Assembly (NCBI RefSeq): GCF_900218065.1
Contig: NZ_OBMU01000001.1
Location: 667,674-731,673, forward strand
DNA from: Novosphingobium sp. Chol11
Lineage (GTDB): Bacteria > Pseudomonadota > Alphaproteobacteria > Sphingomonadales > Sphingomonadaceae
Length of the DNA stretch: 64,000 bases
Direction of reading: 5' to 3'
Positions 44,390-64,000 of this stretch are shown here, one piece after another (the stretch's first letter is position 1; every line of letters starts with the position of its first letter). The notes beneath the pieces are model-generated. The model saw only the letters and a program-made list of their open reading frames with translations. It ran no database searches and had not been told where the DNA came from. Made by a program: the position numbers and the translations under genes.

Positions 44390-44417
44390 TTTAACTTGTT
44401 AGTAATAAATGTATATT
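44390..44417 (+). promoter_or_regulatory. Possible promoter of the AAA/DUF4435 module
   Basis: In the AT-rich leader of the module, TTTAAC (44390-44395) and TATATT (44412-44417) are separated by 16 bases and lie about 25 bp before the start codon. They agree moderately with a sigma-70 promoter. The ATPase gene then has AAGGGG five bases before its ATG. Unverified. Confidence 0.35.
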
Positions 44418-44442
44418 TTACCGTGGCACTCAAGGGGTGATC

Positions 44443-45739
44443 ATGCATACAATAAAATCGATAGAGGTATTGGGGTTCAGGGGCCAAAGTAAGCCCATTT
44501 ATATTGAGCTGTCCCGGGACGCTAATTTCATAATTGGCCGCAATGGCGCTGGAAAAACCACGCTTATCCATCTGATAAACGCTGTTCTCGCGAATGACAT
44601 CGCGGCTTTGAGTCGCGGAAAATTTAAAAGTGTAACTATTAAGTTTCAACGGGATGACGATCGTAAGGTTCCGTCGGTAAGAGTTGAGCGCTTAGATGAG
44701 TCTGTCGGTGGTGGCATTAACTATTATATTAAAGACTCATCTCGCGCTGATGAACATGAATATCCAGTTTTAAGGAGGGAAGTTCGCCGCATTAGGATCG
44801 GGCCAAGTGGAAGAATAGTGAACTCGGTGCGCGATGTACCACCGGTTGCTAACAGTAGTGGTGTTCCACTCACTGAAAGACTGAAATCACTGTATAACTT
44901 TACTTGGCTGTCTCTTCAGAGGCGACAGGAAAGTGAAGTTGATGATGAATTTGATACGGTCGATGAATACTCTAACGATGTAGATCGGAAGCTGAACCAG
45001 GTATTCAATGACCTGGTAAGGTATTTCTCAAGATTGGATCGTCGTGTATCTGATGAAACTCAGAATTTTCAAAAGAAATGGTTCTTATCCTTCTTGTCGT
45101 CTGAACGAAAATTTGATCCTTCTTCTATATCAAAGCTTGACATTGAGTCTGAGAAAAATTCTTTGGCATCAATATTTGAAAAATTTGAGATGGAAAAGAG
45201 GACGTATGAGAAAAACCTTGAAAATCATTTTGATTGAGTAAAAAAAAATTAGAGGAAGAAAAGAGGAAAGCCTTCGCAGCCTGAGTGACTTATTTATTCT
45301 TTTTGATTCGGTAAGGCTTCATTCTCTAGTTGAGCAATGGCAAGAACTTCAACACGCTCAGAAGTTGACTTATACACCTAAGACTAAGTTCGTTGATATA
45401 TGTTCATCAATGTTGTTTAGGAAAAGCGTAGTAGTAAATAGGAGTAATCAGACTCAGATACTATCGCGTGACGGATCGGTAATACCCATTGAAAGCCTGT
45501 CGTCTGGTGAAAAGCAACTTCTGATATTTTTATCAGAAACATTGCTGCAGGAAGAAGAAACAAATATATTTTTAGCTGATGAGCCAGAATTATCTCTTCA
45601 TGTTCAGTGGCAAGAGGATCTTGTGCCCAATCTTTTGAGCACCAATCCAAATGCTCAGGTGATATTTGCTACGCATTCACCTGACATCGTTGGCGGATAT
45701 CAAAAGAATATAATAAAAATGGAAGAGATTATAGAATGA
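44443..45739 (+). pseudogene. PARIS-like AAA family ATPase (AriA-like), interrupted by frameshift and stop
   Basis: Two parts of one SMC/ABC-like ATPase. Part one, 44443-45237 (264 residues): GFRGQSKPIYIEL, Walker A GRNGAGKTT (residues 32-40), a coiled middle, stop TGA at 45235. Part two, open in another frame from 45242 to 45739: SLRSLSDLFILFDSVRLHSL, signature LSSGEKQLLIFLSE, Walker B NIFLADEPELSLH, H-loop FATHSPDIVGGY. Joining them needs at least two changes between 45228 and 45290, beside a run of nine A. Either the gene is dead or the homopolymer is a sequencing error. Its end overlaps the DUF4435 gene by ATGA. The pairing matches PARIS AriA/AriB; the low GC suggests transfer. Confidence 0.8.
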
Positions 45740-46599
45740 CATTTGAGAGGACGGGGAGCGGTCAGTCTAATCGGTCCATTTTTTTCGGTGTCGATTATAT
45801 CTGTTATGTCGAAGGATCTACGGAGAATGACTTTGGTCCAGATGTAGTTTTCTGGAAGAACGTTTTCGCGGCTTTGCAGCCGACGAAGAAAATTCATTTT
45901 TCCTGTAGGGGTGGAAAACCGGTCCTGGAGCGGTTGGCCATGGAGGTTGTTGAGCAAGACGTCGAAAAGACGATTGTGGCGATGGATGCTGATTACGCAG
46001 AATTTTTAACAGGCAGATATATAAATCATCGCTGCGTCTTCTACACCTTTGGCTACAGCTTCGAAAACGACATATTTTCTTTTGACAATGTCCTCGAGAC
46101 ATTTCGCGTATTATCACGAATGCACAGCGTCTCCAGCGACGTCCAAAGCTTTTTACGGGCGGCATTTGATAAAACCTTCAAAGAGCTTAGAGTGCCTATG
46201 CTCGCAGACTTTCATGCCCTTCGAGCTGGTAGCTCAGTTTTGCCTAGAGATAAGCCTGGCCGAATAATTAGCAGAGATCAGACCACTAATCTTCCAATGG
46301 TAAATAAGTCTGAGTGCGCCAAGATCATTTCGTTGGTGAATGTGGCAACTAAGCCGCGGACGTTTGCAGATTATTCACGCATGCCTAATGCTGTCGCAAA
46401 ATCCTGTGTCGGGCACATACTGGAACTAGTAGTTCATTACACCATAAATGCAGCCATCAAGAACTTTGTATCCAATAAGAATATTGCAAAAGATCAGCTT
46501 AAAGATGTGGCAATCCAGTGCTTTAAAGACTTGCTTAAATCGGAAAACAACAATGATGTGCTGGAGCATCATCGCATGCAGTGCGGTCGGCTGGTATAA
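45736..46599 (+). CDS. DUF4435 (TOPRIM-like) protein, AriB-like effector of a PARIS-type module
   Basis: 287 residues, frame intact. The DUF4435 layout is visible: YVEGSTENDFG with the catalytic-type Glu 26, CRGGKPVLERLAMEV, then IVAMDADYAEFL with Asp 84 and Asp 86 (the DxD of TOPRIM), and FGYSFENDIFSFDN, the usual Y-S-x-E-N block. In PARIS, AriB is a nuclease released when AriA senses a phage anti-restriction protein, and it cleaves a host tRNA. All key acids are kept here. Because the ATPase gene upstream is broken, the effector may be silent, orphaned or kept for another reason. AT-rich, like its partner. Confidence 0.85.
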   Translation: MTFERTGSGQSNRSIFFGVDYICYVEGSTENDFGPDVVFWKNVFAALQPTKKIHFSCRGGKPVLERLAMEVVEQDVEKTIVAMDADYAEFLTGRYINHRCVFYTFGYSFENDIFSFDNVLETFRVLSRMHSVSSDVQSFLRAAFDKTFKELRVPMLADFHALRAGSSVLPRDKPGRIISRDQTTNLPMVNKSECAKIISLVNVATKPRTFADYSRMPNAVAKSCVGHILELVVHYTINAAIKNFVSNKNIAKDQLKDVAIQCFKDLLKSENNNDVLEHHRMQCGRLV

Positions 46600-52535: not shown

Positions 52536-53402
52536 TCACCCATTCACGATCGTGCCGCCATTGGGGTGCAGGACTTGTCCCGACATGTAGCTGGAGTCCT
52601 CGCAGGCGAGGAAGAGGAAGGCGGGGGCGACTTCGTTGGGTTGGCCGGGGCGGCCCATGGGTACGGATTCGCCGAAATGTTCGAGCTTTTCCGGGCTTGC
52701 GCCGCCTGATGGGTTGAGCGGGGTCCAGATGGGGCCGGGGGCGACGGCGTTGACGCGGATGCCGTCTTTCACGAGATTTTCCGACAGGCTGCGGGTGAAG
52801 GCGGTGATCGCGCCCTTGGTGCTCGAATAATCGAGCAGTTCCGATGAGCCCTGATACATGGTAACGCTGGTGCTGTTGACGATCGCCGCGCCTTTTTTGA
52901 GGTGCGGTCGGGCAGCTTGCGTCAGGAAGAACATGCCGAAGATGTTGGTTTGGAAGGTGCGGCGCAGCTGTTCCTCGGTAATGTCGGTGATGTCCTGATC
53001 GGGATGCTGTTCACCGGCATTGTTGACGAGGATGTCGAGGCGGCCGAAGCGGTCGATGATTTGTTTCACGGCATCGTCGCAGAAGGATTTTTCGCCAATG
53101 TCTCCGGCGATGGTGAGGGCCTGTTGTCCTTCGCCTTCGACGATCTGGGCGGTTTTCTTCGCGTCGTCATGTTCGCAGAGGTAGAGGATAGCGATGTCCG
53201 CGCCTTCGCGGGCGTAGAGGGCGGCGACCGCGCGGCCGATGCCGCTGTCCGCGCCGGTGATCAGGGCGACCTTTCCTGCGAGGCGGCCGGAGCCGGGATA
53301 GCGGGGTTCCCATTCGGGCTTGGGCTCCAGCTTGCTTTCGTGACCGGGCAAGCCGTCTTCGTGGATCATCTCTTCATGATTGTCGGATTGGGTGTCGGGC
53401 AT
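52536..53402 (-). CDS. SDR family oxidoreductase (YghA/YhdF-like)
   Basis: 288 residues. NAD(P)-binding TGADSGIGRAVA, NNAG in VNNAGEQHPDQDI, catalytic Ser in NSTSVTMYQGS and YSSTKGAI, then PGPIWTPLNPSGG. The N-terminal extension of about 40 residues (PDTQSDNHEEMIHEDGLPGH) is typical of the YghA/YhdF group. AGGAGATG ribosome-binding site before the ATG at 53402. Substrate unknown; members often respond to stress. Confidence 0.92.
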   Translation of the reverse strand: MPDTQSDNHEEMIHEDGLPGHESKLEPKPEWEPRYPGSGRLAGKVALITGADSGIGRAVAALYAREGADIAILYLCEHDDAKKTAQIVEGEGQQALTIAGDIGEKSFCDDAVKQIIDRFGRLDILVNNAGEQHPDQDITDITEEQLRRTFQTNIFGMFFLTQAARPHLKKGAAIVNSTSVTMYQGSSELLDYSSTKGAITAFTRSLSENLVKDGIRVNAVAPGPIWTPLNPSGGASPEKLEHFGESVPMGRPGQPNEVAPAFLFLACEDSSYMSGQVLHPNGGTIVNG

Positions 53403-53494
53403 GGCGCATCTCCTTTTCCCGGCCAACACTTTGGCAGGGGAGATGGTTCATGGCGTTGCGCGCCGGAGCGCGAGATCGGGTGAACGGGTGGCTT

Positions 53495-54373
53495 TCAGTG
53501 CCCGGCCGAGCCCGCCGCGCCGCGATTTTCCCAGATGGCGAGCGGTGCGTCGGCGCCCGGCATTTCCATGCGCACTTCGCGCAAGGAGACGGCGACGACG
53601 CAGGCGGGGCGCTGTTCCACGCCTGCCGGCTGGACGCAGTGGACGGGGCCGTTGCCCGGCACCTGCTCGATCCGGCCGATGAGGCGGAGCCTGAGACCAC
53701 GGGAGGCGGCGAAATCTTCCGGGGCGAGGCGCAGCACCTTCTCGAAAGGGCGGCCCTGGCGCCAGAGGTCGTTGCCGTCATTCTGGCCGAATTGGGCGAG
53801 GGCGAGGGTCTGGTCGGGTGCTGGCGCAGGGGCTTGCTGATCGGGAGAGGCTGTCCTGGGCGCGGCGGGGCATTCGTCGCTGGTGGACCACGGACGCTCC
53901 ATCCAGAACCCCTCGGCATCATAGCCATCGCCGCCGGGGGGAAGTTCGAAGTCGGCGGCCTTCCACGCGACCGGCATGGCATGGACGCGCAAGACTCCGG
54001 CCCCCTCATCATAGCGCCAGCGCATGGGGGCGGCGCTATCCTTGTCCGCCTCCCCGGAGCAGCCGAAGGGAAGGGAAAGCTCGAACCGCTGCCCTACCGC
54101 CCCGGCGATGTCGGCGGGCAGCGGCTTGCCCGACGACAGGGCATCGGCGGCGCGGCGGGCGAGATCGGCGATCTCCGCACGGCCCCAGAGGCGGGGCGAT
54201 TGCGGCAGGACGGGGATGGGCGGCGGAATGACCGCGACGGGCGCGGGGGCGGGCGGCGGAGCCTTGGGCGCGGTGACACGGCCCAGCAGGAATCCGCCCG
54301 CGCCGATGGCGATGAAAGCGGCCAACCCCGCGGCTATGGCGAGCCGGCTGGTCCGGGCACTGGGTTCACGCAT
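53495..54373 (-). CDS. Hypothetical single-pass membrane protein
   Basis: 292 residues from MREPSARTSRLAIAAGLAAF, one N-terminal helix (residues 9-30), then a Pro-rich linker and a periplasmic domain with LSLPFGCSGEADKDSAAPMRW, GFWMERPWSTSDECPAA and VHCVQPAGVEQRPACVVAV, containing four cysteines. No family recognised. Divergent from the SLC13 permease gene. Confidence 0.68.
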   Translation of the reverse strand: MREPSARTSRLAIAAGLAAFIAIGAGGFLLGRVTAPKAPPPAPAPVAVIPPPIPVLPQSPRLWGRAEIADLARRAADALSSGKPLPADIAGAVGQRFELSLPFGCSGEADKDSAAPMRWRYDEGAGVLRVHAMPVAWKAADFELPPGGDGYDAEGFWMERPWSTSDECPAAPRTASPDQQAPAPAPDQTLALAQFGQNDGNDLWRQGRPFEKVLRLAPEDFAASRGLRLRLIGRIEQVPGNGPVHCVQPAGVEQRPACVVAVSLREVRMEMPGADAPLAIWENRGAAGSAGH

Positions 54374-54476
54374 AAGCCTTTGATAGCAAAAAAGTCCTCC
54401 TTCTCCAGAGGATAATCGCCCTTTTTCCGCCTTGCTGCGTTGACAGGGGCGGCAGCAGGCACGAGGCAGGGGGCGC

Positions 54477-55787
54477 ATGACGATTGACCAAGTTCTGACG
54501 CTGCTGGTGCTGGCCGCCGTCGTCGCCGCGCTGATATGGGACAAGGTGCGCGCCGATGTCGTCGCCCTGTCCGGCGCGGCGGTGCTGCTGATGACCGGCG
54601 TCGTGCGGCCCGTCGATGTGCAGGGCGCTTTTGCGAGCCCGGCGATCATCGCGCTCGCGTCGCTGTTCGTCATTGCCTATGCGCTGGAGCTGTCGGGCCT
54701 GCTCGACCGGGCGATCGCCATGGCGGTGTCGATGTGCAAGCGGATGGGCGCGACCGGCATGTGGCTGCTGCTGTCGATGATCGGCGCGGTGTCCTGCTTC
54801 CTTAATTCGACGCCGATCGTCGTGCTGGGCGCGCCGGTGGTGCGCGACGTCGCCAATGCGCTGCGCCTGTCGCCCAAGCGGTTCCTGATGCCGCTGTCCT
54901 ACATCACCATATTGACCGGATGCTGCACCCTGATCGGGACGTCCACCAACCTGCTGGTCGATGATATGGCCAGCGTGGCCGGGCAGCCGCGCTTCGGCAT
55001 TTTCGAAATTACGCCGGTGGGCGTGCCGATGGCGCTGGCGGGCGGGCTGTACCTGTTCCTGTTCAGCAAGAGGCTGCTGGGCGGACGGCATGAAGCGGAT
55101 GAGCGGGAAGGCGAAGCGCAGCCGATCGACGCGTCCCATGTGTACAGCGCGCAGGTGGGCGACCCGGCGGTGTTCGCCGAGCCCCGGCCGCTGAACCCCG
55201 CAAAGGCGGCGATCGCACTCAGCGTGTTCGCGGCGGCGGTCGGGCTGGCGGCGATCGATGTCGCGCCGATCGCGGCGAGCGCCTTTGCAGGGGCGGTGTT
55301 GCTGATCCTGCTGCGGGTGATCAGCGCGGACGAGGCCTATAGCGGGCTGCGGCCGCAGATCCTGATCCTGATCGCGGGGATGGTGGTGATCGGGATCGCG
55401 ATGGAACAGAGCGGGCTGGCGGCGGATGCCTCGCGCATGCTGATCGGCAGCGTTCACGGGCTGAGCCCGCTGATCGCGCTGGTGGTGCTGTATCTTGTCA
55501 CGATGGTGCTGACGGAGCTGCTCTCGAACGCGACGGTGGCGGTGCTGGTGACGCCGGTCGCGGTGGCGCTGGCCGACAGCCTGGCGGTCAGCCCACGCCC
55601 GTTCCTGGTCGCGGTGATGATGTCGGCGAGCGCGGCCTTCGCCACGCCCTTTGGCTATCAGACCAATGTCATCGTCTATCAGATGGGCGGATATCGCTAC
55701 ATGGATTTCGTGCGGGTGGGCCTGCCGCTCAACATCATCACCTGTGTCGTCGCGATTGCTGCGATCAGCGTGTTTTTTCCGTTCTGA
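54477..55787 (+). CDS. SLC13-family permease
   Basis: 436 residues, about 11 membrane helices. Family motifs: [17 protein letters not shown] and [20 protein letters not shown], with the second-half counterpart [18 protein letters not shown] and [14 protein letters not shown]. The TrkA_C domains found between halves in many SLC13/SAC1-like permeases are absent. Substrates of the family include dicarboxylates, sulfate and phosphate. Its last 23 bases overlap the end of the convergent nhaA gene. Confidence 0.88.
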
Positions 55788-56961
55788 TCGGGCCGGGCGC
55801 CAACCGTAGCAGGAGGTAACCGGCGGTGGCGGACGCAAGCGAGCCCAGCAGGATGCCGAGCTTGGCGGCGTCGCTTTCATGGGGGTGCGCGGCAAAGGCG
55901 AGGCCGCCGATGAAGAGGCTCATGGTGAAGCCGATGCCGCAGAGCAGGGCGACGCCATAGACCTGCGTCCAGCTGGCATGCGCCGGGCGGCTGACCCAGC
56001 CGAGGCGGGACAGGAGCCAGACCGCGCCGAAGATGCCGACCTGCTTGCCCGCGAACAGGCCGAGCGCGATGCCGAGCGGCACAGGCGCTGCAAGGTCGGG
56101 CAAGGAAAAGCCGGTCAATGCCACGCCCGCATTGGCGAAGCCGAACAGCGGCACGATGGCATAGGCGACCCAGGGATGCAGGCCATGTTCCAGCCGGGAC
56201 AGGGGCGAATGCTGGTCGTCGGGCGCGGCGGGCGTGCGCGCCAAGGGGATGGTCATCGCGACGGCGACGCCTGCCAGCGTGGCATGGATGCCGGATTGAA
56301 GGACGCAGAACCAGACGAAGAGGCCGATCAGCAGATAAGGCCAAAGCTGGTTGACCCCAGCGCGATTGCAGAGGGCGAGGCAGACGAGGCCCGCTGCGGC
56401 CAGGGCGAGGGGCAGGAGGCTCAGTTGTTCGCTGTAGAAAAGCGCGATGATGAGGACGGCGATCAGGTCGTCGATGATCGCGACGGCGGTCAGGAAAATC
56501 TTGAGCGACCCCGGCACGCGGCGGCCGAGCAGGGCCAGCACGCCGAGCGCAAAGGCGATGTCGGTCGCAGCGGGAATCGCCCAGCCGCGCATGCCGATCG
56601 CGTCCCCCCGATTGACGGCGATGTAGATGAGGGCGGGGACGACGACGCCCGCAGCCGCCGCGAGCCCCGGCAGCAGGCGATCGGGCCATCGGGCGAGCTG
56701 TCCGTCCAGAACCTCCCGCTTGATCTCCAGCCCCACCACCACGAAGAAGAGCGCCATCAAGCCATCGTTGATCCAGTGCAGCAGGCTGAGCCCGCCGATA
56801 TCGATGTGGAGCGCATGGAAATAAGTGGCCGATTGGGCGGAGTTGGCGATCAGCATTCCCAAAGCCGCCGCGCCTATCAGGATGATGCCGCCCGCCGCTT
56901 CCGCCGCAAGGAAAGCGCGCATCATGGAGAGGGGGCGGGCGACAAGGGAAGGAACGCTCAT
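55765..56961 (-). CDS. nhaA: Na+/H+ antiporter NhaA
   Basis: 398 residues. [65 protein letters not shown] and [22 protein letters not shown] with the paired Asp of the ion site, [11 protein letters not shown] near the end. It exchanges two protons per sodium and supports pH and salt balance. Convergent with the SLC13 gene, the two overlapping by 23 bases. Confidence 0.95.
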
Positions 56962-57151
56962 GGGAGGTTCCTAGAGCATCGTGCGCAAAGGTGGGAACCG
57001 GTTTCGCGCTTGAAAGGATGCGATAACAAAACTGGAGCGCGCGACCTGCGTCCGATTGAAGGCAGCGCGCTCTAGCGGCCAATGTGGAGGAGGGCCGCCC
57101 GTCTGCGAGAGGACGAGCGAGCATTGTGCCAGCCGATCCTTGCTGAAAAGA

Positions 57152-57592
57152 TCAGGCCGGGCCCGGCCCCAGCACTTCGATGCTGCCGATATGGGCGCGG
57201 TTCAGTTTCGTGCGGTGAACCATCTGCCAGTGACCGTCCACCTTCTGCCAGCGATCATGATATTCGCCGAGGGTGGAGAAGGTCAGGTGACCCTTGTCGC
57301 CCATGCCTTTGTGCATGTCGGTGACATAGCAGCGGCTGGTCGCCTGATCCCCGGTGACATCGATGACGAGGTTGCCCAGAAGATGCTGGGTCGGCCCGCA
57401 ATCGTCGAGGAAGGAGCGCATCAGCGCGATCACCTCCTCACGACCGTTGAGCGGGCCTGTTCCCATGTCGGCGGTTGCATCCTCTGCCATGACCGAGCCG
57501 ATTGCCTGCCAGTCGCGCTCATCCATGGCGCGGGCGAAGGCATAGAGCGCGCGTCCGATCTCCCGCTCCGCCAGCAAGCTTTCCAGGTTCAT
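57152..57592 (-). CDS. NTF2-like (SnoaL-type) protein
   Basis: 146 residues from MNLESLLAEREIGRALYAFA. The cone-shaped fold pattern is clear: RALYAFARAMDERDWQAIGSVMAEDATADMG, ALMRSFLDDCGPTQHLLGNL, and YHDRWQKVDGHWQMVHRTK. The group includes dehydratases, isomerases and ring-hydroxylating dioxygenase beta-type chains; no oxygenase alpha gene is adjacent, so no reaction is assigned. Confidence 0.85.
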   Translation of the reverse strand: MNLESLLAEREIGRALYAFARAMDERDWQAIGSVMAEDATADMGTGPLNGREEVIALMRSFLDDCGPTQHLLGNLVIDVTGDQATSRCYVTDMHKGMGDKGHLTFSTLGEYHDRWQKVDGHWQMVHRTKLNRAHIGSIEVLGPGPA

Positions 57593-57702
57593 CGGCAATC
57601 CTTTCCTTCAGCATCCTCTCCAATGGAATCGAGCATAGGCGGAGGATCGGCCTTCGCAAGCAGCGTCGTAAATGCGTGTTGCGCGATCGTGGAGCGCAGC
57701 CG

Positions 57703-57960
57703 TCAGTGCGTTTCGGTGCGCAACCGGTCGGCCAACTGCTCGATTTCGAAGGGCTCAAGGACCCAGGTGCGCGTCTTGCGGCCGATCCGATGGATAGGCT
57801 GGGTAAGAAGGACGCGCGCTTGTTCCCGCGCATGCGGTTTGAACATGGCGAAATGTTGGGCGCAGTCGCGGATCGTGCCGATGAGCGGCGCCCGTCCTTC
57901 AAGGTCGATCAAGGTTGCAGGCAGATCCCAGGGAATGGCGGATGTGGGATGATCGGTCAT
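57703..57960 (-). CDS. Conserved-looking hypothetical protein
   Basis: 85 residues, MTDHPTSAIPWDLPATLIDL start, then CAQHFAMFKPHAREQARVLL and a Trp-containing end TWVLEPFEIEQLADRLRTET. No signal or membrane segment. No family recognised. It is near the curli regulator gene but separated from it by about 130 bp on its downstream side relative to transcription. Confidence 0.6.
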   Translation of the reverse strand: MTDHPTSAIPWDLPATLIDLEGRAPLIGTIRDCAQHFAMFKPHAREQARVLLTQPIHRIGRKTRTWVLEPFEIEQLADRLRTETH

Positions 57961-58091
57961 GGAACAGCTCCAGTTTGATCATCGTCCCTATCGGATTTGG
58001 GAAGAATGGGAAGGAGGAAAGCGGACCTTCGCCAAGCCAGGGCAGGCGCATCGGGCGATAAACGGCCCGGGAGAACAGATATGGCCGCTGA

Positions 58092-58670
58092 TCAGGTGAT
58101 ACGGAAGGGCATCAGCATCTTGAAGAGTTTCTCGCGGGACTGGGCGCCGATCTTTCCGTATAATTTTCGGACCTGGGTGCGAACCGTGTCGACCGATACG
58201 TTCCTGTCCTGCGCGATTTCAACGACTGTCTTGCCCCGAAACAGCGCCAGAGCCGCTTGCGTTTCGCTTTCGGTCAATCCGTAGATACTTCCGAAATCGG
58301 CGAACATGATGCGCTTTTCGGCATGGGAGCAGCTGACTTCGAGGCAGAACATGCCGGTCGAGGGTTCATGATGACCAAACATCACGAAATGGCCGTCGCC
58401 ATCCTTGACGGTCAGTATTCCGGTTTCGGCTTGCGATTTGAGATCGGACAAAAAGGATGACAATTTGGTGCGGAGGCTGGCGTCGACTAGCAGTTGTCCT
58501 GCTTCTTCGTGCAATATCTCACTGGCTTCTATCGCGCGTCTGCCCTCATCATTCCACCATTGGATGTGATATAGTGAATCGATGATGAGACGTCCTCTGA
58601 AATCAGCGGAGATCCACCCGAGGGCGAGCGCATCGAAAGGCTCAAGACTGGTTTGCAGCATCCCCACCAT
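58092..58670 (-). CDS. LuxR-type transcription regulator next to the curli genes
   Basis: 192 residues. The N-terminal part is PAS-like (IDSLYHIQWWNDEGRRAIEA), and the C-terminal HTH reads LTESETQAALALFRGKTVVE and VSVDTVRTQVRKLYGKIGAQ, the LuxR recognition-helix pattern. There is no receiver-domain Asp motif. Start at 58670 or 58661. It lies at the end of the curlin gene run, 245 bp from the last curlin gene, in the same direction. A CsgD-like role in amyloid control is inferred from position only. Confidence 0.82.
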   Translation of the reverse strand: MVGMLQTSLEPFDALALGWISADFRGRLIIDSLYHIQWWNDEGRRAIEASEILHEEAGQLLVDASLRTKLSSFLSDLKSQAETGILTVKDGDGHFVMFGHHEPSTGMFCLEVSCSHAEKRIMFADFGSIYGLTESETQAALALFRGKTVVEIAQDRNVSVDTVRTQVRKLYGKIGAQSREKLFKMLMPFRIT

Positions 58671-58915
58671 AGCCGAACAGTAAAAACTGAAGACGGAAAT
58701 GCCCTAAAAGGTAAAAAGATGCGTGGCAATATCTTAACGATTGGGACCAATTCTATATTTGAATTTCAAGAAAATGACCGGGCGGTAATATTTCAGAGAT
58801 CTGGAAAATCTTCTACTAGGATCCGGCCTTACTTGATCTAGCTCGTCCAAGTGGGCTCAGTTGCTCCCCTCACGAAAGCAGCTGAGCCCATTTGCCGTGG
58901 ACGGTTATGCGGCGT

Positions 58916-59614
58916 TTATTGGCGGATCGCGACGATGTTCGCGATGCCGCTTTGCGAGACGCTGGCGAAACTGGCCGCTGTTCCCTGGACGATCGTGGCG
59001 CTGTTGCGGTCGCCGGATTGCAGCAATGTGGCGACGCCCTGCGTCGAGGATTGCAGGATTTCGCCGACATTGCCGGTGCCGCGCTGAAGCAGGACGGAGA
59101 CGTTGCCGACGCCATATTGCTGTTGGACGGCGCGGTTGTTCGAGCCTTCCTGCGAGGCGAACTGGATATTGCCTTCGCCGCGCCAATCCTGCTGCAGGCT
59201 GTTGCCCTGCGCGTCCGTAGCTTCGTAGGAGCCGGTGCCGCTGCGCAGATACCGTCCCAGATCCAGGCCGTAGCCCAGGAAAGCCATTTCGACGGGCGCG
59301 CCCGATGAGGAGAGATTTTGAGAAAGCTGGTCAGCACTCGCAGCCTGAGCGAAGGACAGGCCGCCCGAATTGGCCTGGAAAGCGGCGTCGATCGCCTGCT
59401 GTTGCGGCTGAGCCTGCGACACGAACGCGTTTCCAGCCGTGGGCGAAACGATCTGGCCGACGATCGGGGAAGACCAGGCAGGGCGCTGGCCGATCTGATC
59501 GATCAATATATCCGATTGCGCGGCGAAAGCGGATCCCTGGTAAAGAAGCGCGGCCGACAGGCCCAAAATCGCGAGGCACTTCCTGCCATCAACCCGTCCA
59601 TATGTGTGCGCCAT
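58916..59614 (-). CDS. Curlin-repeat protein, CsgB-like minor subunit
   Basis: 232 residues, signal peptide ending in GSAFA-AQS. The first half lacks clear repeats; the second half has curlin-like units such as GNIQFASQEGSNNRAVQQQ, GNVSVLLQRGTGN, and a last unit SFASVSQSGIANIVAIRQ that fits the S-x5-Q-x-G-x2-N-x5-Q curlin pattern. Only about four units, so a nucleator or cap type (CsgB-like) is more likely than a main fibre protein. Placed after the CsgH-like gene, separated by about 105 bp. Confidence 0.75.
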   Translation of the reverse strand: MAHTYGRVDGRKCLAILGLSAALLYQGSAFAAQSDILIDQIGQRPAWSSPIVGQIVSPTAGNAFVSQAQPQQQAIDAAFQANSGGLSFAQAASADQLSQNLSSSGAPVEMAFLGYGLDLGRYLRSGTGSYEATDAQGNSLQQDWRGEGNIQFASQEGSNNRAVQQQYGVGNVSVLLQRGTGNVGEILQSSTQGVATLLQSGDRNSATIVQGTAASFASVSQSGIANIVAIRQ

Positions 59615-59719
59615 TACGTCCTCCGGCATATGTCCCCGGAGGTAGGTTTATGGGCTGGGCCGTGAAGATATCGTTAGTTCAGCGTTAGTAGGCTGTTATG
59701 CATAACAAAGTGTTAGCGG

Positions 59720-60082
59720 CTATTTGACGATCTGGTCCTGGGCGGCCAAGTCCTTGCCGCGATAGATTTTGAGCTGGATCGTATAATGGTCGTCCGCCGC
59801 GATCGAACCGAAAGCCAGATGGGAAAGGCGCACCAGTTGATGCGGGGCAGCCTTTACCACGCCTGCCTGCTTGACCTTTGCATTGCCGGCAACGCCCTTC
59901 TTTTCACCGACCAGTTCATAGCGGCCTTCGAACGGTTGTTGCGCCGTGACATAGCCCACGAACCGCTTGGCGGCATTAGGCGCGTCCTCGACCAGGATGC
60001 GCGCCTTCAGTTCGGGTTCGGCGGCGTGGGCGGAGACGGTCATCATCATTCCGGCAATGAGGGGCAGGATGGTGCGGATCAT
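59720..60082 (-). CDS. csgH: CsgH-like curli assembly protein
   Basis: 120 residues with signal peptide (MIRTILPLIAGMMMTVSAHA). The mature part is an all-beta domain with the pattern of the CsgC/CsgH family: ELKARILVE, FVGYVTAQQPFEGRYELVGE, KVKQAGVVKAAPHQLVRLSH, YTIQLKIYRGKDLAAQDQ. CsgH-type periplasmic proteins of alphaproteobacteria act to hold curlin unfolded and keep it from aggregating before export. Two bases downstream of the unknown secreted protein's gene, so probably coupled to it. Confidence 0.75.
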   Translation of the reverse strand: MIRTILPLIAGMMMTVSAHAAEPELKARILVEDAPNAAKRFVGYVTAQQPFEGRYELVGEKKGVAGNAKVKQAGVVKAAPHQLVRLSHLAFGSIAADDHYTIQLKIYRGKDLAAQDQIVK

Positions 60083-60084
60083 CG

Positions 60085-60768
60085 TCAGTTCCTTCCCGGC
60101 ACGACGACGGAACCGCCGCCGGGCACGATGACGGGCTGACCATTGGGGGCAGGCGTCGAGTTGGCGATCGAGTCCGAGGCCGCCTGCGCCGCGACGGCCT
60201 GCGCGACGGGCGAATTGGAAACATCGCCGGAGCTCAGCCGCCGCGCGACCTCTCCGGCATCGGGCGCGCGACCGCGTGACTGCTGTTCGCTGGCGACGCG
60301 CTGCGACGCCCGCTCTTCATCGCTTGTGAGCAGGGCTTCTTCCGCGGATATCGGCGGCGGGGGCGGTGCAGCCTCGATCACGCTGTTGCAGTCCACGCCC
60401 TTGGGCGGTTCGCCCCTGCCTTCGGCCGCGCGGGCACAGGCGTCGACCAGCCCCGGGGGCAGGGCGTTTATGCGGGGGTTCACGTTGCGGTCGGCAAGCT
60501 GAGACGTGGGGGCAGATCCGGCGGCGCGGGGGGCAATCTGGCGCAATGCTGGCTCGCGGCCGGTGCGCGATGAGGAGAGCTGGCCCTGAAGCGCGGGGGC
60601 CTGGGAGGCGCTCGACGAGATCTGGTCCGAGGCGCTTGCCGCGCCGACCTGCGGCACCGCGCGGCCTGAGGAATGGGTCGGCAGCTGCTCAACCGCCAGG
60701 TCACTGCGCTGGGCGAGCGCGGATGTTCCCCCGGCCAGAAGAACCGTGATCAACAATAGGGTTCGCAT
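60085..60768 (-). CDS. Secreted protein of unknown function in the curli locus
   Basis: About 227 residues (three close ATG codons, 60783, 60774 and 60768, make the start uncertain). Signal peptide TLLLITVLLAGGTSALA, then a Ser/Gln/Ala-rich region (SASDQISSSASQAPALQGQL), one pair of cysteines (VDACARAAEGRGEPPKGVDC), a proline run, and a Gly/Pro end. No curlin repeat is present. Adjacent to csgH with two bases between, so it likely serves the same fibre system, perhaps in export or anchoring. No family recognised. Confidence 0.65.
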   Translation of the reverse strand: MRTLLLITVLLAGGTSALAQRSDLAVEQLPTHSSGRAVPQVGAASASDQISSSASQAPALQGQLSSSRTGREPALRQIAPRAAGSAPTSQLADRNVNPRINALPPGLVDACARAAEGRGEPPKGVDCNSVIEAAPPPPPISAEEALLTSDEERASQRVASEQQSRGRAPDAGEVARRLSSGDVSNSPVAQAVAAQAASDSIANSTPAPNGQPVIVPGGGSVVVPGRN

Positions 60769-60816
60769 AGACATTTCGCTCACGGTTCAGGACGCAGGGT
60801 GCCGCTTCAATATAGC

Positions 60817-62166
60817 CTATTGCCGGACCTGCGCAAAATTGCGGTCGCCGGTCTGGGCGACGCTGCTGTAGCTGCCGGCGGTGCGTTGCGACACAAAGGC
60901 TTCGTTGCTGGCGCCGGTCTGGGAGATCAGGCTGACTACCGCCATGTCGACGGTGCCCGCGACGGCGCTTTGCAGGACGCTGGCGTAATTGCCGTTGCCG
61001 CCGCCCTGCTCGATCGTGGATTTGGCATAGCCGGACTCGGCGGTCTGGTAGACATGGGCGTCATTGCCGTTGCTGTTCTGGCGGATGGTCGATTCCTGAA
61101 GGATACCGCGCTGGAACACGGAGGCGAAGTTGCCCGACACATCGCCATTTTCCAGGCGGCCCTGTTCGATCAGGCTGTATTGGCCGCCATCGACGACATC
61201 GCCATCCTGCCGGACGAAGGCGAGATTGTCGGAGCCATATTGATGGGTGATGGCGTTGGCGTCGTCTTCCTGAAGAATGACGCCCCGGTTGCCATAGCCG
61301 ACCTGCCGGACGATGGCGCGATTGTTTCGGCCGATCGTGTCGCCGACTTCGAAGGCGAAGGTGTTGGGGCTTTCCGCGCCCTGCTGGATGACGGCGTCGT
61401 TTTCCGCACCCTCCTGCTCGATCAGGGCGTCGTTGCGCGCGGCGACGGCGTTGAACTGCACCGGGACTTCGCGCAGGCTGATGTCGCGGAAGCCGCCCTG
61501 CTGAATGGTCGCATTGTTGGCGAGGTTGTTGCCGCTGAACGCGCCTGCCGACAGGTCGAAGCTGCGATGGGTCTGCTGGATGCGGCCATAGTTGGAATAA
61601 AGCAGGCCGCCCGAGCCGATCGCCGAGCCCACTTGCCCGACATAAGCGCGGTTGAGCGAGCGCTGGCCCGGCGCGCGGGTGTCGGCCTGTTCAATAAGGG
61701 TCGCATTGTCCTCACCCGCCTGGTTGACGACGGACCAGCCTGCATTGCCCGCAGCCTGGTTGATATTGGCGAGGTTGCGCAGGCCATCCTGCTCGACCGC
61801 CGCCTTGTTGCCTGGGGTATCGAACTGGAGCCCAGGCACCTCATCAAGGTTGAAATTGCCGATGATCGACGATGCGCTGGAGTTGAAGGCCGAGATGATG
61901 GCGCCGCGAACATCGCCCTTGTTGAAGCCGCGCACGTCGCTGCGGTCAGGCACATTGTCGCTGACGAGCCCGGCGTCCTGCGACTTGCCGAGCGCGTTGG
62001 CGAGGACCTGATCCTGGATGAAGCTTTGCGGCGTGTCGGCGATCTGGATGTCGGTCACGAGGATGCCGTCGCCTGCGGTGATGGTTTGAGCGGCGGCGTG
62101 GATGGCCAGCGGCAGGCTCAAGGAAACAGCCGCGCCGAGCAGCCAGAGATCGTTCCTTTTGCGCAT
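60817..62166 (-). CDS. Large curlin-repeat protein (449 aa)
   Basis: Secreted (MRKRNDLWLLGAAVSLSLPL, signal peptide, cleavage near AAAQ). Residues 35-130 form a non-repeat head (VTDIQIADTPQSFIQDQVLA); from about 130 to the end there are roughly a dozen curlin-like units such as AIVRQVGYGNRGVILQEDDA, AITHQYGSDNLAFVRQ, SLIEQGRL, and the last, SYSSVAQTGDRNFAQVRQ, which fits the canonical pattern. Three times the size of E. coli CsgA/CsgB. Proposed as a fibre component or a long nucleator. Units are far apart in places, with inserted loops. Confidence 0.78.
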   Translation of the reverse strand: MRKRNDLWLLGAAVSLSLPLAIHAAAQTITAGDGILVTDIQIADTPQSFIQDQVLANALGKSQDAGLVSDNVPDRSDVRGFNKGDVRGAIISAFNSSASSIIGNFNLDEVPGLQFDTPGNKAAVEQDGLRNLANINQAAGNAGWSVVNQAGEDNATLIEQADTRAPGQRSLNRAYVGQVGSAIGSGGLLYSNYGRIQQTHRSFDLSAGAFSGNNLANNATIQQGGFRDISLREVPVQFNAVAARNDALIEQEGAENDAVIQQGAESPNTFAFEVGDTIGRNNRAIVRQVGYGNRGVILQEDDANAITHQYGSDNLAFVRQDGDVVDGGQYSLIEQGRLENGDVSGNFASVFQRGILQESTIRQNSNGNDAHVYQTAESGYAKSTIEQGGGNGNYASVLQSAVAGTVDMAVVSLISQTGASNEAFVSQRTAGSYSSVAQTGDRNFAQVRQ

Positions 62167-62226
62167 CTTGTTGCTCCTGAGCCCGTAGCGGTTGGATGAG
62201 CTGGCCCGTCAGACCGGGCCGAGCGG

Positions 62227-63363
62227 TCAATATTGGGTGACGCTGATCGCGCTTACGCCGTTGGTGCCGGCCTGCTGTTCTATGCCGATGCTATGATTGT
62301 TGCCGATCTGAGTGATGGCGGCAGTCGCATTGCCCGGCTGGCGCAGGGCGATGCTGTTGTTGTCGCCGAACTGGCCGAGCAGGGCAATATTGTTGTCGTC
62401 ATTCTGCTGAAGCGTGATGCTGTTTTTCGTGCCATTGCCGCGCGCACTGTAGCTGGCGAGCACCGCTTCGGCCGACTGGGTGTAATTGGCGTTGCCCGCA
62501 GCCGCGCCGAGCGTACCGGCGGAGGCTAGCGCGGTTTCCGCCCATGCTTCGGTAGTCCCGCCATTTCCGGCCTGGACCTGTACGGCGATATTGTTGTTAC
62601 CGGCCTGGTGCGCATAGGCCGAGTTGAAGCCGCCGTGCTGAACCTGGACGGCGCTGTTGCCGCTGCCGGTCGCGCCATTGGGCGTGCCCTGCACGATGGC
62701 GGCCTGATTGAACGCGCCGGAGACGGCCTGCGCCGCCTTGTTGTCGTTGCCCAGCTGCGACACGTGGAAGTCGTTGCTGTCGCCCTTGATCAGAACGCCT
62801 GCAAAGTTGCGCTCGCCCGACTGGCGGATAACGCCGGATTCGAGGTTGGCGAGTGGGGTGAGGGTGGCGGATGATCGAAGCGCTTTGAGCCCTGCATTGC
62901 CGTTCTCGCCATCGTTGCCGTTATTGCTCTCGCACGGGTTCCCAACGCCACGGCCATGCCCCTCACCGCAGGGATCGCCTTGGCCGTTGTTGGCGTGCTT
63001 AACCTTGAAACTGCCTCGAGCGAATCCGGTTAGTTTCTTCGGTTCAAAAGCCATCGTGCGGCCAATTCCTCCTACGACATCCCCCCTCCCGTTGCGGTTG
63101 CCGGTGACCGACACGACCGCGCGATTGCCTTGGCCGCTCTGGGTCAGGTCGAGAAGGTTCTCAGACCCCTTCGTCTGAGCCCGCGCCGTCGATCCGGTCG
63201 CGCCGCTCTGGTCGATGCTGGTTTGATTATAGTCGCCCACCTGCTCGATAAAGGCGACCGACTGGGCTTTCGCGCCGGAGCATGTGGCGACCGCAGCCAT
63301 CGTTGCTGAACCCAGCGCCGCGATCAAGCGCGCCTTGCGCGTCCAACTGCCTGTCATCCGCAT
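62227..63363 (-). CDS. Curlin-repeat protein with a Gly/Asn-rich insert (378 aa)
   Basis: Start MRMTGSWTRKARLIAALGSA at 63363 with AAGGAG upstream; signal peptide cleaved near SGAKAQS. First curlin units: VAFIEQVGDYNQTSIDQSGA, LLDLTQSGQGNRAVVSVTGN. Then residues about 90-155 form an insert rich in Gly and Asn with two cysteines (GDPCGEGHGRGVGNPCESNN). The second half is regular: GVIRQSGERNFAGVLIKGDS, AAIVQGTPN, AVQVQHGGFNSAYAHQAGN, ending SIGIEQQAGTNGVSAISVTQ. Part of the same operon. Confidence 0.78.
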   Translation of the reverse strand: MRMTGSWTRKARLIAALGSATMAAVATCSGAKAQSVAFIEQVGDYNQTSIDQSGATGSTARAQTKGSENLLDLTQSGQGNRAVVSVTGNRNGRGDVVGGIGRTMAFEPKKLTGFARGSFKVKHANNGQGDPCGEGHGRGVGNPCESNNGNDGENGNAGLKALRSSATLTPLANLESGVIRQSGERNFAGVLIKGDSNDFHVSQLGNDNKAAQAVSGAFNQAAIVQGTPNGATGSGNSAVQVQHGGFNSAYAHQAGNNNIAVQVQAGNGGTTEAWAETALASAGTLGAAAGNANYTQSAEAVLASYSARGNGTKNSITLQQNDDNNIALLGQFGDNNSIALRQPGNATAAITQIGNNHSIGIEQQAGTNGVSAISVTQY

Positions 63364-63489
63364 GTCATGCTCCTTCTCGGCATTCTGGCCCTTGGCTGGC
63401 CGATCATCCTTCACCTGAACAAAGCCGCCGCTTTGCTGAGGAGAAGGATGCGGGACGGCATGACGCCGCCCCGCACTTCTTGTGCGCGA

Positions 63490-64000
63490 TTACTGCGAGA
63501 CGTTGGCGACGTTGCCGTTGCCGTTCTGCGAGATCGTGCTGTAGGACAAGTTGTTGGTGTTCTGCAGCACGGTTGCGGTGTTCAGATCACCTGCCTGCTT
63601 GACGATGCTGTCGACGTTCAGGGCGTTCTGAGTGACGAACGACTTGTTGTTGTCACCCGTCTGGTTGATCAGGCTGTTGGCACTGAGGCCGCCCTGGGTA
63701 ACTTCAGCCGTGTTGGTGTAGCCGTTCTGGGTCACATTGCTGAGTGCGCCAGTGGCATCCAGGTTCTGCGTGACGGTCGCAGCGTTGCCGTTGCCGCCAA
63801 ACTGGCGAACATTGCTAGTGGCTACCGCATACTGAGTGACGGTCGCGCGGTGCTGATTGCCAACCTGATCGACGGTACTGGAAGCGAAGTTCGTGCCAGT
63901 TCCGTTCGCCGTCTGCGTAACAGTGGCGGTGTTACGCGAGCCATTCTGGTCTACGTCGCTCGAAGCAAATGCGCCAGACTGGTTGAGGGTGGCGTTGTTG
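63490..64000 (-). CDS. Curlin-repeat protein, N-terminus beyond the right edge
   Basis: The frame is open to the end of the window. At least seven units are visible: SDVDQNGSRNTATVTQ, STVDQVGNQHRATVTQ, SNVRQFGGNGNAATVTQ, SNVTQNGYTNTAEVTQ, SLINQTGDNNKSFVTQ, SIVKQAGDLNTATVLQ and, as the C-terminal unit, YSTISQNGNGNVANVSQ, which matches the E. coli consensus S-x5-Q-x-G-x-G-N-x-A-x3-Q exactly if the preceding Ser is counted. The most regular of the four, so probably the main fibre subunit (CsgA-like). It is the 5'-most curlin gene visible in the run. Confidence 0.85.
   Translation of the reverse strand, partial: NNATLNQSGAFASSDVDQNGSRNTATVTQTANGTGTNFASSTVDQVGNQHRATVTQYAVATSNVRQFGGNGNAATVTQNLDATGALSNVTQNGYTNTAEVTQGGLSANSLINQTGDNNKSFVTQNALNVDSIVKQAGDLNTATVLQNTNNLSYSTISQNGNGNVANVSQ

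Follow-up and report, generated by a model that had tools for sequence, protein, structure and literature searches.

A probable CsgE-less curli cluster of a sphingomonad clade in Novosphingobium sp. Chol11, with unequally conserved curlins and a candidate accessory gene

Curli are sticky protein fibres that help to hold bacterial biofilms together, and how such a fibre is started and how its subunits share the work are known mainly from the two-subunit curli of Escherichia coli. A stretch of 64,000 nucleotides of the Novosphingobium sp. Chol11 genome (the window; C10:667674-731673 of a 3.7-Mb genome, examined here together with the 12.2 kb past its right edge) carries four different curlin-repeat proteins and raises the question of what each of them does. 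The locus is almost certainly a curli system, and the best overall explanation, which we hold to be probable, is a complete curli (type VIII secretion) cluster without CsgE that belongs to a distinct sphingomonad clade and for which a division of labour among the subunits is proposed. The labels CurA, CurB, CurC and CurD for the four curlins, and Sec232 for a secreted protein encoded among them, were coined in this analysis.

Nine genes, all with intact reading frames, lie on the minus strand in the transcription order csgF-csgG-CurD-CurC-CurB-Sec232-csgH-CurA-luxR, with products of 174, 356, 742, 378, 449, 232, 120, 232 and 192 amino acids. An earlier note on the window had described four curlin-repeat proteins in one direction, and each of them passes the Pfam cut-off for Curlin_rpt (PF07012), CurA in one stretch only. 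The motif QxGxxN occurs 16 times in CurD, 7 times each in CurC and CurB and 5 times in CurA, far above the means of 0.89, 0.40, 0.37 and 0.17 and the maxima of 5, 3, 4 and 3 found in 2000 residue shuffles per protein, which rules out random Asn/Gln-rich sequence as the source of the repeats. Genome-wide, all 30 curlin-repeat matches at E ≤ 1 fall inside this cluster. The curlin that the note had given as "170+" residues is a curlin indeed, but the piece in view is only the C-terminal part of the 742-residue CurD. Judged by eye, all four curlins appear to carry their own signal peptide. Antisense to the CurD gene, on the plus strand, runs an open frame of 753 codons (L003 7041-9302); it is probably artefactual, produced by the repeated codons of a GC-rich sequence.

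The note had also advised a search for csgG, csgF and csgE past the right edge. The first two were found just outside the window (CsgG pore family, PF03783, 1.2e-57; CsgF, PF10614, 8.2e-29), which rules out an orphan locus without a pore; the third was not, as no PF10627 match at E ≤ 1 was returned genome-wide, with a positive E. coli control. The CsgH-like protein of the note passes the cut-offs of both Pfam (PF21112, 31.1 against 27 bits) and NCBIfam (NF041112, 46.6 against 35 bits). CsgH has been described, in the available part of PMC4838910, by two distant cysteines whose disulphide joins the terminal strands. The window protein contains no cysteine, which weighs against the proposed reading; it is thus a CsgH by profile, lacking the disulphide, and not a CsgH under that definition. 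The same part of that source reports that a CsgC cysteine mutant lost little potency. The regulator scores 27.1 bits for the LuxR-type helix-turn-helix (Pfam GerE, cut-off 23.5), as the note had it, and 13.8 bits against a CsgD family cut-off of 250, so that by family score it is LuxR-type only and not a CsgD. A second, weak CsgG-family protein, glycine-rich and in a 295-codon frame, is encoded at C10:260113-260625 (L004); no curlin matches lie near it and it was set aside.

Of the four curlins, CurB was modelled with AlphaFold2, and it models as a beta-solenoid closest to a solved CsgA, a prediction of the kind that the note had called for. The model has 23 strands over residues 121-448, preceded by about 118 N-terminal residues without repeats that are of low confidence, and the alignment shows irregular spacing between the repeats. 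In structure comparison the top solved chain is CsgA of Pontibacter korlensis (8c50_A, Z 27.2; next entry 16.2), and this chain is also the sole solved match of the CurB sequence profile at E ≤ 1 (2.7e-13). SufD-like and right-handed beta-helix proteins, with Z of 16 and below, were not accepted as relatives. Several values speak against leaning hard on the model: its mean predicted local distance difference test score (pLDDT) is 60.9, with a predicted template-modelling score (pTM) of 0.67, and it was built on an alignment of only five rows; the root-mean-square deviation from CsgA is 8.4 Å over 258 residues; and Foldseek, although it too ranks 8c50_A first, does so weakly (E 0.15, probability 0.13). 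The note was prepared to give up the curli reading if no pore gene lay nearby and no beta-solenoid was predicted, or if the repeats scored no better than random sequence; since csgG and csgF adjoin, CurB models as a solenoid and the repeats exceed shuffles, none of these is the case.

The proposed division of labour comes from a comparison of the window with two complete counterparts, the cluster of Sphingobium bisphenolivorans YL23 (L041) and that of plasmid pTomMM7Ab of Sphingobium sp. TomMM7A (L115; all nine genes annotated as hypothetical), each of which has the nine genes, the LuxR-type gene in the same place. Identities to L041 and L115, respectively, are 92 and 94% for CsgG, 89 and 92% for CsgF and 87 and 92% for CurB; they are 73 and 76% for CurC, 75 and 75% for Sec232, 66 and 72% for CsgH, 64 and 64% for CurA, 65 and 70% for the LuxR-type protein and 52 and 50% for CurD. 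The ratio of nonsynonymous to synonymous divergence (dN/dS) stays under 0.5 for every one of the nine genes in both comparisons, at 0.11 and 0.11 for CurB, 0.10 and 0.09 for CsgG, 0.08 and 0.04 for CsgF, 0.23 and 0.25 for CurC, and 0.43 and 0.41 for CurD, the length of which also varies between clusters (742, 759, 652, 723 and 383 amino acids). Because constraint is so unequal, CurD may be the bulk subunit and CurB a specialised one, a reading that we regard as evenly balanced. Against it stands the observation that the special conservation of CurB weakens at greater distance: its identity to the loci L042, L043 and L044 is 66, 59 and 46%, compared with 74, 73 and 68% for CsgG, and in L044 it ties with CurC (45.5%). 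Moreover, CsgG and CurB have a lower dS than the other genes, so that recombination may be a further cause of their similarity, and CurD repeat alignments may be out of register, inflating dN.

CurC and CurA are less sharply defined. CurC has a Gly/Asn-rich insert with two cysteines, and the motif at its end, GNPC-x-x-NNGN, is found again in 12 of 60 loci, a Caulobacteraceae bin among them, mainly in small curlins; this links CurC by motif to a putative minor subunit of other clusters. A further point against the proposed roles is that, once 5 of 56 small curlins from the Sec232 clade are excluded, profile scores split the remaining 51 small curlins of other clusters almost evenly, 25 CurC-like against 26 CurA-like. 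In CurA about 120 mature residues of the N-terminal half have no clear repeats, and the repeats lie in the C-terminal third.

The secreted protein that the note had assigned to no known family keeps that status: Sec232 matches no family in Pfam (E ≤ 1) or NCBIfam (E ≤ 0.1). Five homologues share two invariant cysteines, C116 and C132, which lie in the block P-x4-DAC...GVDC; also common to them, near the C-terminus, is the stretch P-x-A-x2-VA-x2-L-x2-GD. The model (mean pLDDT 50.7, pTM 0.21) averages above 70 only at about residues 111-140, and the protein is probably disordered for the most part, apart from the cysteine block; matches in the PDB were none by sequence and none useful by fold (top E 8.5). 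Sec232 has no repeats and is not itself a curlin, and an N-terminus common to it and CurA was rejected (profile comparison probability 40%, 26 columns, largely signal peptide). Just after the presumed signal peptide, however, stands SDLAVEQ, similar to the opening half of a curlin repeat. The Sec232 stop precedes the csgH start by 2, 3, 4, 6 and 2 nucleotides in the window, L041, L042, L043 and L115, and the two genes are adjacent in all five loci that possess both. Against a fixed pairing, L044 and L045 have Sec232 but no csgH found by the profile built here, so it is not universal; in L045 the match is weak (E 0.0049), though its position behind the curlins is the usual one.

The weak match included, 6 of 50 CsgG loci have Sec232, and so do 3 of 72,556 plasmid records, of which the two examined both have it in such clusters; indeed, all convincing matches with examined surroundings sit in such clusters. 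Within the order, two of 396 genomes have a convincing Sec232 match, the window's own and G412, a genome of the same genus whose match, on contig 15, lies at a position that fits L041. Weak matches over short stretches in G117, G392 and G462 (E between 1e-4 and 7e-4; frames of 530, 483 and 215 codons) were not counted, though that in G462 could be a distant relative. From this distribution Sec232 is likely to be a true curli accessory. Because its stop adjoins the csgH start, it may be guessed to be a secreted protein that acts together with CsgH or with the fibre ends; a part in periplasmic holding or at the fibre end is a tentative suggestion that we favour somewhat less than its negation. 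Titles and the beginnings of abstracts, with subscription journals mostly outside coverage, gave no account of the cluster or of Sec232, which is weak evidence of absence.

How exceptional is such a locus? Measured against E. coli the large multi-curlin set had looked exceptional in the note, and this did not hold up among relatives. A CsgG scan of named genomes returned 58 loci, 59 with the window's own; because it began from the window's CsgG, it covers closer relatives and not all curli. Nine of the 59, with less than 7 kb available past csgG, were dropped; in the other 50, curlins were counted as same-strand frames of at least 90 amino acids with at least three QxGxxN, read from the first possible start, so that lengths may run slightly high. 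One curlin is present in 1 locus, two in 14, three (the commonest number) in 20, four in 12 and five in 3. With four or five curlins in 15 of the 50, the window's own included, and frames of at least 742 amino acids in 12 and of up to 1110, an expanded curlin set is ordinary for the lineage, and uniqueness on the ground of four large curlins was rejected. Many CsgA-like proteins per genome have also been reported before, in the available parts of PMC3521004 and PMC10192328. CsgH was found by the profile built here in 10 of the 50 loci, some weakly (down to E 0.006), and above its own cut-off in only 2 of 149 genomes of the family, so the profile may overcount or undercount.

What does set the cluster apart is its clade. 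In a CsgG tree of 60 rows all 7 rows from Sec232 loci group together (support 100/98), with the ordinary Sphingobium clusters L058, L061, L062 and L064 elsewhere. That tree carried a warning that long branches meet near this group, and when it was rebuilt without seven long-branched rows (53 rows) the group was kept at 100/100, L045 still being a long branch. Two further loci of Novosphingobium sp. JCM 18896 hold partial sets, L042 with eight of the nine genes and L043 with seven, the first curlin being taken as CurD by position; both lack the LuxR-type gene and L043 also CurA. These two loci of one genome have nearly identical csgF and csgG and strongly different curlins (first curlin 383 against 723 amino acids). 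Plasmid pTomTYG42b has the same gene string, with its csgF-csgG part annotated in three pieces (L151 2530-4181) that overlap or abut, unlike in pTomMM7Ab; the Sphingobium plasmids bearing the set are of 60 kb. In the same tree, the CsgG of L088 and L091, from two metagenome bins labelled Acidobacteriota, is nested among Hyphomonas sequences, either by transfer or through mis-binned contigs.

The position of the cluster in the genome also suggests mobility. In the congener G477 the trmB match adjoins a full-length match to the frame at 52539-53447 with only the trmB stop codon between (in L149 the one ends at 2469 and the other starts at 2473), whereas about 14.7 kb (window-equivalent 53448-68170) separate them in the window genome. 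G477 is otherwise collinear with the window down to 40000, except for three unmatched frames between 44.4 and 46.6 kb. That region (44395-46596), in which G+C drops to 0.39 at 45-46 kb from about 0.6 in the surroundings, is possibly another foreign piece. Of the other four congeners compared, G470 carries some 9 kb of different DNA beside trmB, G519 gives only more distant matches, and in G476 and G512 the 20 kb examined contain none of the left-hand frames. A trmB survey of 30 loci, the window's own among them, from the 60 of 61 genomes matched, found csgF beside trmB in none of the 29 other congeners (flank about 1.5 kb; about 0.25 kb in one). Since the site is empty in G477 and filled with other DNA in G470, it is possibly an insertion hot spot, and the absence of the cluster beside trmB in congeners, together with Sec232 in three plasmid records, points to horizontal movement between strains.

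The features are collected in Table 1. Upstream of csgF lie genes that we take from their sequences to be trmB, metK and lnt, and beyond the LuxR-type gene presumably an NhaA-like antiporter. The gap is 1 nucleotide between csgF and csgG, 2 between Sec232 and csgH, 33-147 at the other junctions up to CurA and 245 from CurA to the LuxR-type gene; the short gaps suggest a single transcription unit as far as CurA. A promoter scan limited to sigma-70-type sites gave one site against 2.2 in shuffles and none between the curlin genes, and terminators showed no excess over shuffled sequence.

Table 1. Positions, in window coordinates, of the curli cluster and of the stretch that holds it.
Feature	Position	Strand	Evidence
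CurD, 3' part (742-aa curlin)	63490..64000, gene on to window-equivalent 65718	-	Pfam Curlin_rpt, 18 stretches, 5.4e-38
csgG then csgF	beyond right window edge, upstream of CurD, up to window-equivalent 67462	-	L003 9392 (CurD end), 11136 (csgF end)
CurC, 378-aa curlin	62227..63363	-	Pfam Curlin_rpt 4.5e-22, 6 stretches; aligned with relatives
CurC two-cysteine Gly/Asn-rich insert, ending in GNPC-x-x-NNGN	62914..62979	-	coordinates checked by translation
CurB, 449-aa curlin	60817..62166	-	Pfam 1.7e-17; AlphaFold2 model; Z 27.2 to CsgA 8c50_A
Sec232, secreted protein without known family	60085..60783	-	signal peptide by eye; homologue alignment
csgH	59720..60082	-	PF21112 31.1 bits; NF041112 46.6 bits
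CurA, 232-aa curlin	58916..59614	-	Pfam 1.7e-5; motif positions; alignment
LuxR-type (GerE) regulator, final gene of cluster	58092..58670	-	Pfam GerE 3.2e-6
Window share of the ~14.7-kb stretch absent from G477	53448..64000		stretch ends at trmB, window-equivalent 68170

Four curlins behind one pore need not make one fibre. Each could form a homopolymer of its own under different conditions, with no composite fibre, and their individual signal peptides and Pfam-passing repeats would suit this, as would the statement in the available part of PMC3521004 that additional copies, where they stand in operons of their own, may be under separate regulation. Here, however, all the curlins stand in one gene string with no sigma-70-type promoter between them, and the set is kept as a set in L041 and L115; we consider separate homopolymers unlikely and a composite fibre plausible. 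The multi-layer fibre that the note had also suggested finds nothing in the data to support it.

Alternatively, CurA, CurB and Sec232 could be surface adhesins displayed through the same pore and no part of the fibre. The long non-repeat parts ahead of the repeats in CurA and CurB, and the want of repeats in Sec232, are what one would cite for this, yet the 23 predicted solenoid strands of CurB, closest to CsgA, tell against it, and the idea seems distinctly improbable. Least probable of all, to the point of being very hard to credit, is a decaying or silent cluster that was acquired by transfer and is unused: its distribution is patchy (of 149 genomes in the family, 13 have csgF, counting the window's own), and it is not beside trmB in the congeners examined, but all nine frames are intact and every gene shows the constraint given above.

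Under the reading that we prefer, a CsgE-less curli cluster with divided labour, signal peptides would export the curlins to the periplasm, where CsgH would keep them from aggregating, and a CsgG-CsgF pore would secrete them unfolded; on the cell surface they would then build a single fibre of beta-solenoids stacked end to end. CurD, long and fast-drifting, would be the bulk CsgA-like subunit; CurB, with its non-repeat N-terminal part and a conservation against close relatives nearly like that of CsgG, would anchor or nucleate the fibre at the pore; CurC would be a minor curlin also present in other clusters, CurA an extra cap or minor subunit, and Sec232 a secreted accessory working with CsgH. 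A bolder proposal, which we think doubtful, would make Sec232 a new accessory class, a mostly disordered protein with a cysteine-linked mini-domain and a single curlin-like strand (S-D-L-x-V-x-Q), made with CsgH, that holds or caps curlin ends and, with an anchoring CurB and a drifting bulk CurD, defines a transferable subtype; if true, fibre identity could change while the assembly site stays fixed.

Much of this has known counterparts. The CsgBAC/CsgDEFG curli of E. coli share the CsgG pore, CsgF, curlin-repeat subunits and a CsgC-like chaperone with the present cluster, in which no CsgE was found, no CsgD is seen by family score, CsgH stands in place of CsgC, and four subunits of up to 742 amino acids plus Sec232 contrast with two of about 150 (PMC3521004, available part). 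The available part of Dueholm et al. 2012 (PMC3521004) describes Alphaproteobacteria without csgC, csgD and csgE, many with csgH, and as many as six csgA/B homologues in certain genera. This csgH-type curli has csgH beside several curlins, as here, but its longest CsgA in that part of the source has 529 amino acids and 22 repeats, and no Sec232-like gene is described there. Sphingobium naphthae (L058) and S. lactosutens (L062) likewise have three curlins behind csgF-csgG, and the stretch also includes a LuxR-type gene (as in 18 of the 59 loci overall), but they belong to a separate CsgG clade and have neither Sec232 nor a csgH found by the profiles built here. The CsgA of P. korlensis (PDB 8c50; PMC10192328, available part) is the best solved match of CurB in structure and sequence profile, and CurB differs from it in its non-repeat N-terminal part and irregular repeat spacing.

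What the cluster apparently represents, then, is a subtype of sphingomonad curli that can be transferred and that includes an accessory gene not described before; its novelty is real, if modest. Four subunits under very different constraint, with an undescribed partner coupled to csgH, would offer a natural test of what anchor, elongator and variable subunit each contribute. Curli would also be added to the surface traits able to move between sphingomonads, the cluster being carried on plasmids as well.

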